Shown here: one piece after another, positions 17,239 through 22,277 of the stretch
How positions within the stretch are numbered: position 1 is the stretch's first letter
How the letters are laid out: each line of letters begins with the position of its first letter
NCBI GenBank assembly: GCA_012032285.1
Contig: JAAURJ010000020.1
Coordinates: 1 to 46,824 of the forward strand
DNA length: 46,824 nucleotides
Origin: Sphingomonadales bacterium
GTDB taxonomy: Bacteria > Pseudomonadota > Alphaproteobacteria > Sphingomonadales > Sphingomonadaceae
Direction of reading: 5' to 3'
Translations under genes and position numbers: made by a program
Notes under the pieces: model-generated
What the model saw: the letters and a program-made list of their open reading frames with translations, nothing else
Database searches by the model: none
What the model was told of the DNA's origin: nothing

Positions 17239-19544
<2,306 letters not shown>

Positions 19545-19663: not shown

Positions 19664-19753
19664 CGTTGGGAAGTTTTGGGAGAGTGTGCCGTTAAGCGCA
19701 TTCTCTATGAGGGATTTGCCTATATTGCGCAAATGACAACAATCTATAATTGA

Positions 19754-19781
19754 TTGCAAAACTTGCAACTATGCCTATGGT
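19754..19781 (+). promoter_or_regulatory. lysR promoter with LysR-box-like palindrome
   Basis: TTGCAA (19754-19759) and TATGGT (19776-19781) are 16 bases apart and fit a sigma-70 promoter for the lysR gene. The words TTGCAA-AAC-TTGCAA form a palindrome with T-N11-A spacing, as expected for an autoregulatory LysR site. Confidence 0.4.
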
Positions 19782-19810: not shown

Positions 19811-20686
19811 ATGCGGCGCCTGCCCCCGTTGCGATCATTGGAAGCATTTGTACGTGTGGCCAAATTGGGTTCGGCCAAATCGGCGGCAAGCGAATTATCG
19901 CTGTCCCCGCCGGCGCTCAGCCGCCGAATAAAGGCGCTGGAAGATTTTATGGGCAAATCGCTGTTTGACCGCCGGTCGCAGGCGATGATCCTGAACCATG
20001 ACGGCAAGCAATTGCTTGACGCGATCGAACCCGCGCTGGAGGCAATGGCAGAGGCTGTGGATGAACTATCGGGTCAGGGCGGCGAATATCGTCTCCGGCT
20101 TGGCGTATTGCCGTTATTCGGAACGCAGCGTTTGATCCCTCGCCTTCCCGAACTGCGTAAAATGTTTCCCAAACTGCATATTGATGTGGACGCATCGGCC
20201 CATGCCGAAAATCTGCTGGGCGATGTCGTCGACGCGGCAATCATTATCGCCGCCGATGTCGATCCGAAACTGTATAGCGTGCGGCTTGATACCAACACCG
20301 TCTATGCCATTGCGTCCAAGCAAATGGCGCAGGAACATAATATCACAAAACCAGAAGACCTGGCAAAACATACCATAATCGTCCACAGCGATATGCCCAA
20401 AATTTTCGATGAATGGCGCAGCGCGATGGGGATAGCCAAGCTGAGACCTGCGGCGGTAGACAGCATTTCGAGCGGGCCGTTAATGCTGGAGGCCGCCGCC
20501 AATGGACTTGGCATTGCCATCATGCATGGCAGCCATTTGTCCGACGCAAAAGACCCGCGCCTGACCCGTCTGTTCGATGTCGAGGTGGAAAGCCCATATA
20601 GCTATTGGTTCGTATGTCGGCCGCGTGCGCTTAAACAACGCTCGGTTAAATTATTCCATGACTGGCTATTGAAAGCCGGGGTGTAA
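19811..20686 (+). CDS. LysR-family transcriptional regulator (GcvA-like)
   Basis: The N-terminal winged HTH (RSLEAFVRVAKLGSAKSAASELSLSPPALSRRIKALEDFMGKSLFDR) is diagnostic of LysR regulators. It is followed by a periplasmic-binding-protein-like effector domain from about residue 90 (YRLRLGVLPLFGTQRLIPRLP). The 291 residues match the family. GGAGG six bases before ATG 19811 fixes the start, so an upstream in-frame start is rejected. The effector is unknown. Its neighbours are cdc48 (divergent) and, after an 800-bp gap, an SDR/acyl-CoA dehydrogenase operon on the other strand, which could be its target. Confidence 0.9.
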   Translation: MRRLPPLRSLEAFVRVAKLGSAKSAASELSLSPPALSRRIKALEDFMGKSLFDRRSQAMILNHDGKQLLDAIEPALEAMAEAVDELSGQGGEYRLRLGVLPLFGTQRLIPRLPELRKMFPKLHIDVDASAHAENLLGDVVDAAIIIAADVDPKLYSVRLDTNTVYAIASKQMAQEHNITKPEDLAKHTIIVHSDMPKIFDEWRSAMGIAKLRPAAVDSISSGPLMLEAAANGLGIAIMHGSHLSDAKDPRLTRLFDVEVESPYSYWFVCRPRALKQRSVKLFHDWLLKAGV

Positions 20687-20945: not shown

Positions 20946-21186
20946 AATTGTTCGGTTCCCTTTCCTTGCGGTCCGGTCGTTTTCCCAATCTGGCGATCAT
21001 CAGGTCCAATCACTCAGTTCCAATCCCCGTTGCCGGTTCTTTTTCCTTTGTCATTTTTCCTTCTGACAATTGAAACATGGACCCAGTTGCCGAGTCGGTG
21101 CAACGGGAAAATGACAAGTTATCCACAGGCAGGGCAAATAGCGGTGGAAAATTTCGGGGATACAGGGTGGCCCATTGGCCAGATGC

Positions 21187-21222
21187 AAAAAACGGCCCCC
21201 AGCGCGAAGCATGGGGACCGTT
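21187..21222 (-). terminator. terminator of the candidate small RNA
   Basis: An 11-bp minus-strand stem (AACGGTCCCCA with TGGGGGCCGTT, one G-U) encloses a TTCG-containing loop and is followed by a run of Ts. The plus strand lacks a comparable T run, so termination is directed to the minus strand. Confidence 0.8.
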
Positions 21223-21303
21223 ATTTCTTCCAGCGAGCGAGGGAGAGGAGGAGAGAGAGGCTCGCTGGTCAAAACTGTTTCGGTGCGTTGCCGCGTCCGA
21301 TGA
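21187..21303 (-). ncRNA. candidate stress small RNA with anti-Shine-Dalgarno loop
   Basis: Three structures follow one another on the minus strand. First is a short hairpin with UCGG/CCGA and GCG/CGC stems around a GCAA tetraloop (21300-21280). Second is a perfect 9-bp stem, CCAGCGAGC/GCTCGCTGG (21268-21230), whose 21-base loop is purely C/U and contains CUCCUCCUC, complementary to Shine-Dalgarno sequences. Third, after seven bases, is a strong terminator (AACGGTCCCC paired with GGGGGCCGTT, then Ts; 21222-21187). A sigma-32-like promoter precedes it. This is the design of the CUCCUCCC-loop RNAs of alphaproteobacteria (CcsR in Rhodobacter; suhB/ar14-type RNAs), which sequester ribosome binding sites under stress. 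No protein frame is credible here. The length would be about 115 nt. Confidence 0.65.
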
Positions 21304-21308
21304 CCTAC

Positions 21309-21337
21309 AAATGGGGGTTTTTGCATTTTTGTGCAAG
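21309..21337 (-). promoter_or_regulatory. sigma-32 (RpoH)-like promoter of the candidate small RNA
   Basis: On the minus strand CTTGCA (21337-21332), a 15-base spacer and CCCCATTT (21316-21309) match the heat-shock consensus CTTGAA - N13-15 - CCCCATNT at all but one of the defined positions. The predicted start, near 21303, lies just before the first hairpin of the RNA. Confidence 0.6.
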
Positions 21338-21412
21338 TGCGAAAAAAATCTCTATTGTTGCAAATTATGCAACTATGTCCCTCGTTGTCATTTTCCCTCT
21401 ATTTTTCAATAT

Positions 21413-21448
21413 AAAAACGCCGCAACATCGCTGTTGCAGCGTTTTTTT
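21413..21448. terminator. bidirectional terminator after the SDR gene
   Basis: AACGCCGCAACA and TGTTGCAGCGTT pair around TCGC, with one mismatch, and have A/T runs on both sides. It ends the minus-strand SDR operon 34 bases after its stop and insulates the small RNA downstream. Confidence 0.85.
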
Positions 21449-21481: not shown

Positions 21482-22277
21482 CTATGCGTCGATGCTGTTT
21501 CCGGGCAGGCTGGAATAAGCGACTCCCCCGTCGCAGGCGATGGTATCACCGCAAATATAATCGCCCGCACGGCTCGCCAAGAATATTGCGAGGCCCGCCA
21601 TATCTTCGGTGGTGCCAACACGCGCAAAGGGTATATTTTTGCCGACCGCATCCTCATGATCGCGGGCAACCTTGTTCATTTCCGACGGGAAAGCACCGGG
21701 TGCGATACCGCTGACCAGAATATTTTGCGGGGCCAGTTCCGCGGCTAGGCGGCGGGTCAGATGGATCACGGCCGCCTTTGACGCCTGATAGGGATTAGGT
21801 TTGCCAAGGGTTGATTTTTATCCCGTCGATCGAGGCGATGTTAATGATCTTTGCCGGGCGTTCATGACGGGCGGCATTTTTCATTGTGCCGTGCAGCGCC
21901 TGCGTTAAAAAGAACAAGCCTTTCACATTCAAATCCATGGTCCGGTCCCAGCCTGCCTCGGGGAAGCTGCCATAATCCGCGCCCCATGCCGCACCCGCAT
22001 TATTGACCAATATATCGAGCTTTTCTTCCCGCTCGGCAATTTGATGGGCAAGGCTGTGGCAGCCATCGACTGTGGACAGATCGGCCGGCAGGCCGACGAC
22101 CCGGTCCCCAAGTTCTGCAATGGTTTGTTCAATCTGATCCACTTTCCGGGCGCTGATATACACACGTTCGCAACCGGCGGCGAGATAACCTTCGACGATC
22201 ATCCGGCCAATACCGCGCGAACCGCCGGTAACCAGCGCGACACGGCCATTTAGGTTGAATAGGGAATTAAGGTCCAT
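21482..22277 (-). pseudogene. SDR-family oxidoreductase, one frameshift
   Basis: Two frames join to one short-chain dehydrogenase of about 265 residues. The first gives the NAD(P) motif ALVTGGSRGIGRMI, the structural motif LVNNAGAAWG and INIASIDG. The second gives the active-site region YQASKAAVIHLTRRLA and the ending GGVAYSSLPG. The catalytic Ser, Tyr and Lys are all present. The break is at GGG 21808-21810; with two Gs the reading is continuous (IDGIKINLGKPNPYQASKAA) and the Ser-Tyr spacing is normal. It follows two acyl-CoA dehydrogenases by 18 bases and is probably the 3-hydroxyacyl or alcohol oxidation step of that operon. Confidence 0.85.

Follow-up and report, generated by a model that had tools for sequence, protein, structure and literature searches.

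Several described systems share features with the small-RNA locus reported here. The SuhB/MmgR/alphaR8 family (RF00519), represented for example by SuhB of Sphingopyxis granuli and SisA-D of Caulobacter, comprises short RNAs with a pyrimidine anti-Shine-Dalgarno (anti-SD) stretch and a terminator. C/U-rich anti-SD loops are also a feature of the Rhodobacter RNAs CcsR1-4, and ar14 RNAs carry C/U loops of the form CUCCUCC. In gammaproteobacteria, the LysR-type protein GcvA activates gcvB, which produces an RNA of approximately 200 nt. The LysR-type gene in that system lies divergent from the small RNA (PMC9409037), an arrangement repeated at our locus by a LysR-type gene and a suhB-like RNA, while in Rhizobiales the LsrB/VtlR-AbcR1 pair offers a second likeness, since a LysR-type gene adjoins an anti-SD-type small RNA and a T-N11-A motif lies upstream of a sigma70 core promoter (PMC8844928). 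An exposed anti-SD 10-mer is described for alphaR8 (PMC12559287), and the four CcsR copies are co-transcribed with ccaF1 (PMC8307010).

The DNA analysed here, referred to throughout as the window, is a stretch of 46,824 nt from a Sphingomonadales bacterium. Its minus strand encodes a predicted small RNA of 115 nt at 21301-21187, which extends from A21301, a start placed according to the position of the -10 element and by analogy with SuhB, to the end of a T-run at 21187. An initial annotation made from the letters of the window had described most of this architecture correctly. A 5' hairpin with a GCAA tetraloop is present at 21299-21281 (hairpin 1, from sequence and fold), although this element is variable among relatives and, by eye, apparently missing in G032. 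Hairpin 2 (21268-21230) is defined by sequence, fold and double-sided changes, and has the perfect 9-bp stem that had been noted, in which CCAGCGAGC (21268-21260) pairs with GCTCGCTGG (21238-21230) around a 21-nt loop (21259-21239) that consists of C and T throughout and includes CTCCTCCTC. This C/U loop is the presumed anti-SD seed; it lies in a pyrimidine run of 22 nt, unequalled on the minus strand of the window (the next has 17 nt) and longer than any on the plus strand, which reaches 18. Sequence and fold also place an intrinsic terminator at 21221-21187, from the beginning of its stem to the end of the T-run; it follows hairpin 2 as described, but at a distance of 8 nt from the stem and not the seven first given. 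The predicted RNA folds with a z-score of -3.44, and 3 of 200 shuffled sequences fold equally well.

The locus cannot be assigned to the families that it was first thought to resemble. Rfam yields zero matches at gathering cut-offs in the whole window, and when 21100-21420 is compared at E<=10, the matches are to ctRNA_p42d (18.3 bits), ar14 (RF02344; 14.5 bits, E 1.4, cut-off 58.8) and the ClpQY promoter (12.5 bits), none of which comes near its cut-off. The suggested kinship with suhB finds no counterpart in these results, because 21301-21187 produces zero RF00519 matches even at E<=10 (cut-off 41 bits), and the window RNA differs from SuhB in being longer (115 nt, whereas seven family examples measure 61-65 nt), in having three hairpins and in closing its loop with a 9-bp stem. 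Membership of ar14 fails on its score, and alignment shows that the window RNA lacks the CCUCCUCCC that ar14 has in its terminator loop. Nor does the common plan proposed for CcsR hold, for those RNAs are tandem copies behind ccaF1, whereas the window RNA is a single copy with its own promoter and a short-chain dehydrogenase-type (SDR) gene upstream. GcvB is likewise unrelated to the window RNA, and AbcR belongs to another RNA family. Our best reading is that this is a trans-acting small RNA from a family absent from Rfam 15.

BLAST detects relatives of the small RNA within Sphingorhabdus, and from 11 members of that genus we built a covariance model, R1, which scores the window locus at 76.4 bits (match 21185-21269). 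R1 has matches at E<=0.01 in 44 of the 45 Sphingorhabdus genomes (at E<=1.5e-6 in 41); the matches include 33 of the 34 genomes outside the model-building set, are weak in G042, G037 and G043, and are absent in G036 only. The alignment used for covariation has 44 rows, 40 of them distinct, counting one reverse-strand artefact (L120 plus) and leaving out G043, which fell below the cut-off. Across these rows 94.2% of cells pair and 16 of 23 modelled pairs show double-sided changes, counts that lean towards the model because the alignment was fitted to it and the genomes are related. Compensatory change in the 9-bp stem, which the initial annotation had put forward as a check, is seen in all 10 modelled pairs of the hairpin 2 helix, while 6 of the 13 terminator pairs have changed on both sides, with 99.6% of cells paired. 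The covariation score is 0.317, compared to 0.142 +- 0.009 for shuffled alignments (0/500 as high), and slid partners give at most 0.080. The pyrimidine run includes CTCCTC in 40 of the 44 genus sequences (the exceptions being G041, G002, G031 and G035), and so an accessible C/U-rich loop is kept while the stems covary, as expected of an Hfq-dependent anti-SD small RNA. Since it is conserved and covarying in the genus, the structure of the locus goes beyond chance, and a real, conserved small RNA at 21301-21187 is very probable. Model matches in 44 of 45 genomes, together with covariation, uphold the original proposal that a small-RNA gene is present here, one that has a promoter of its own, carries an anti-SD loop and ends in a terminator.

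Beyond the genus, a search in which 15 candidates were scored per genome returned nine R1 matches among 298 family genomes, none exceeding 46.3 bits, and eight of these were not credited as orthologs. A probable ortholog, judged by eye, is found in another genus (G095; L114, 1501-1590, minus strand), where it has a CU loop and is preceded, at approximately 650 nt, by an SDR gene (64% identity); the palindrome there has diverged to TTGCG-N5-CGCAA. Separately, weak R1 matches at about 1501-1590 in L109, L110, L112 and L117, from other genera, consist of a C/U-loop hairpin and terminator directly behind a phasin-like gene, the Pfam assignment of which (Phasin_2) comes from L109 alone. Phasins coat PHB granules, for which MmgR is named.

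The core promoter of the small RNA lies at 21343-21308 (minus strand) and comprises TTCGCACTTGCA at 21343-21332, a -35 element TTGCAC at 21336-21331, a 17-nt spacer and a -10 element CATTTG at 21313-21308. Within the genus, TTCGCAnTTGCA is retained in all 44 promoters of the small RNA and a -10 element of the form YA[TC]nT in 30. Upstream, centred at -64, is a palindrome, GTTGCA-N5-TGCAAC (21357-21373), that we propose as a LysR-type site. The palindrome has two sites in the window, where 0.05 are expected, and six in the 2.78-Mb genome, where the reversed control has 0. A pattern search placed the second window site at 19753-19769, between a LysR gene and a suhB-like RNA; the other four genomic sites, inspected by eye, do not have TTCGCAnTTGCA at the fixed distance. 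Across the genus, the looser form TTGC[AG]-N5-[CT]GCAA stands at one fixed distance above TTCGCAnTTGCA in 42 of 44 (not in G035 and G033), and the strict form precedes the small-RNA promoter in 31 of 44. In several relatives, judged by eye, the SDR terminator also uses this palindrome as its inner stem.

The same element with the same spacing precedes suhB. Loose element geometry recurs in 28 of the 30 genus loci of suhB, and many genus genomes repeat the window promoter's 18-base core upstream of an RF00519 RNA. Twenty loci were scanned, of which nine match RF00519 at 36.0-43.0 bits, three of them at 41 bits or more, and the other 11 are not suhB loci. The RF00519 cut-off is exceeded in 16 of 45 genus genomes, and only strong matches were counted because weak ones also occur in 12 of 14 control genomes. 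Third promoter-like BLAST matches in G003, G004, G006 and G019 were rejected; they are without the palindrome and precede another gene, response-regulator-like by eye. Across the family, the strict 41-bp element is present in 122 of 397 genomes and 42 of 96 genera, the reversed pattern occurring 0 times among the matches listed. Among those same matches, 107 of 120 non-genus sites have a suhB core 37-39 nt downstream of the element, and two further sites of the 120 look alphaR8-like by eye; when 20 of the first 30 non-genus sites were scanned with Rfam, 18 exceeded the RF00519 cut-off. At 11 of the 120 sites (L152, L153, L154, L258-L262, L269, L274 and L325) the element appears, by eye, to precede small-protein genes. 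Hence, the element also occurs outside RNA promoters, and its regulon may extend to small-protein genes.

Approximately 0.6 kb from the small RNA is a GcvA-like LysR-type regulator gene (19811-20686, plus strand; Pfam HTH_1 and LysR_substrate), our proposed activator, although its best NCBIfam match, GcvA, reaches 191.7 bits against a cut-off of 288. It is flanked by the only other palindrome in the window and by a divergent, degenerate suhB/alphaR8-like RNA (19706-19628, minus strand), a candidate based on its 22.7 bits with RF00519 (cut-off 41; E 0.025 for the genome) and on its orthologous place beside LysR. All 30 genus loci, one of them partial at a contig edge, have suhB and a LysR ortholog of 71-86% identity in divergent orientation, and 9 of 45 genus genomes have the small RNA, LysR and suhB clustered within a few kb. 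We examined 80 LysR loci and dropped one (L216) with too little upstream sequence; the 79 named loci that remain include 54 with a suhB core upstream and 41 with the full strict element, and the Novosphingobium loci among them are without an adjacent suhB core. LysR-type recognition sites usually lie near -65, and here a T-N11-A palindrome near that position is combined with an adjoining LysR-type gene. From these sequence features the GcvA-like LysR protein is the likely switch for both the small RNA and SuhB.

Could the element instead be read by another factor, acting on the same small RNA? We consider this unlikely, though not negligible. The element is found in six genomes without a detected LysR, of the first 30 element sites outside the genus 14 have an ortholog of the gene within approximately 1.5 kb and 16 do not, and G037, which is 99% complete, retains the RNA in a weakly matching form (32.2 bits) yet has no LysR that we could find. 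However, three of the six LysR-negative genomes (G218, G338 and G178) do not exceed 79% completeness, divergent LysR-suhB pairs flank the palindrome, and both its T-N11-A shape (PMC8844928) and its centre at -64 suit a LysR-type site. Co-occurrence across the family discriminates little here because LysR is nearly universal, being found in 340 of 397 genomes (E<=1e-45); the element is present in 116 of the 340 LysR-positive and 6 of the 57 LysR-negative genomes, p 1.7e-4 before any correction for kinship.

A second alternative concerns the polymerase. The initial annotation had proposed a promoter dependent on RpoH, and the motifs on which it relied, CTTGCA (21337-21332) and CCCCATTT (21316-21309), are both located on the minus strand and fit the RpoH consensus and spacing (PMC8844928). 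The consensus sequences of alphaproteobacterial sigma70 (CTTGAC-N17-CTATAT) and of S. meliloti RpoH1 (CTTGAA-N16-CCTATAT) have the same geometry (PMC8844928), and because that geometry is shared, RpoH is possible for this one genome. Precedents also exist in AbcR2 of S. meliloti, which depends on RpoH1 (PMC8844928), and in the Rhodobacter CcsR RNAs, which depend on stress sigma factors (PMC8307010). Among the 44 genus promoters, CCC[CT]AT occurs in 10, but CTTG is kept in only 3 and CCCCAT in that of the window alone, which is also the single promoter to combine CTTG with CCC[CT]AT, whereas TTCGCAnTTGCA and the palindrome persist. The letters specific to RpoH are not the conserved ones, and we reject RpoH as the conserved driver for the genus. 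A stress RNA transcribed by RpoH, with the palindrome as a side input, is accordingly rather improbable. The promoter held in common with suhB points to the SuhB side of physiology, that is to growth and carbon, and not to the global role in heat or oxidative stress that had been envisaged.

Although the RNA lies 3' of a same-strand SDR gene here as in many relatives, it is most improbable that the locus is a mere 3'-UTR or terminator structure of that gene, or a processing product of its mRNA, given that the RNA has its own promoter element in 44 of 44 cases, that the SDR gene of several relatives has, by eye, its own terminator-like hairpin ahead of the RNA, and that the pyrimidine loop is kept while the stems change. 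The SDR gene (21482-22277, minus strand) is a conserved upstream neighbour, separate from the RNA; it is frameshifted in the window, where it is split into 21795-22277 and 21482-21769, and intact as a 264-aa frame in the relative L008, the frameshift being either a true lesion or an assembly error. Elsewhere in the window, 17239-19224 (minus strand) encodes a CDC48-family AAA ATPase (TIGR01243, 803.2 bits against a cut-off of 802.65).

We return to the LysR-type switch. The link to the GcvA-like LysR protein is reasonably probable, and slightly less so is the full reading, in which an anti-SD small RNA is co-activated with SuhB by this protein in the manner of LsrB and AbcR1. Control of AbcR1 by LsrB provides a proven precedent (PMC8844928); a difference is that at our locus, from sequence alone, one LysR gene is linked to two unrelated RNA families. 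In the proposed mechanism, the LysR protein would bind the palindrome centred at -64 and activate from the -35 side, and housekeeping polymerase would start at about A21301. The same protein would drive the alphaR8 RNA SuhB through the same element, so that two anti-SD RNAs would appear together. The C/U loop would then pair with Shine-Dalgarno regions, probably with Hfq, and the small RNA would repress translation of a group of mRNAs, probably under nutrient-rich conditions. Such behaviour has been described for Caulobacter SisA, which represses by pairing with SD regions in nutrient-rich cells (PMC12559287), and SuhB, together with Hfq, acts in this way on the thnR mRNA when cells grow fast (PMC6563040). 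Predicted duplexes between the loop and five nearby start regions have energies of -11.1, -11.6 and -13.3, and of -4.2 and -3.2 kcal/mol, values that any good Shine-Dalgarno sequence would give. Sites that could pair with the loop over a long stretch show no enrichment in the genome, where 4 (one being the locus itself) compare to 10 for the reversed control.

The wider implication is more tentative. Sphingomonads may possess a dedicated LysR-type regulon consisting chiefly of anti-SD RNAs, with SuhB/alphaR8 family-wide and a second, unrelated RNA family recruited in Sphingorhabdus, while SuhB decays in the lineage of the window; we regard this as a possibility of rather less than even strength. 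Decay of SuhB is suggested because the nearest relative, G024 (L170), which keeps the palindrome beside LysR, is without a suhB core there, and because the copy in the window is degenerate. Under this same tentative reading, the window RNA would be stepping into the place of SuhB, for its promoter core matches letter for letter the 18 bases that typically stand before suhB in Sphingorhabdus. A literature search, mostly at the level of titles and abstracts, did not find the link between LysR and suhB in sphingomonads, which may be contained in the original papers on SuhB of TFA or on alphaR8 phylogeny. Sphingopyxis SuhB follows growth rate (PMC6563040) and, for the four alphaR8 copies of Caulobacter, the passages that describe them report that a common upstream motif was not found (PMC12559287). 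A 41-bp element in 42 of 96 sampled genera, with a candidate activator in its neighbourhood, offers a testable candidate for the switch of alphaR8/SuhB RNAs, and the small RNA described here would add a second anti-SD RNA under the same proposed switch.
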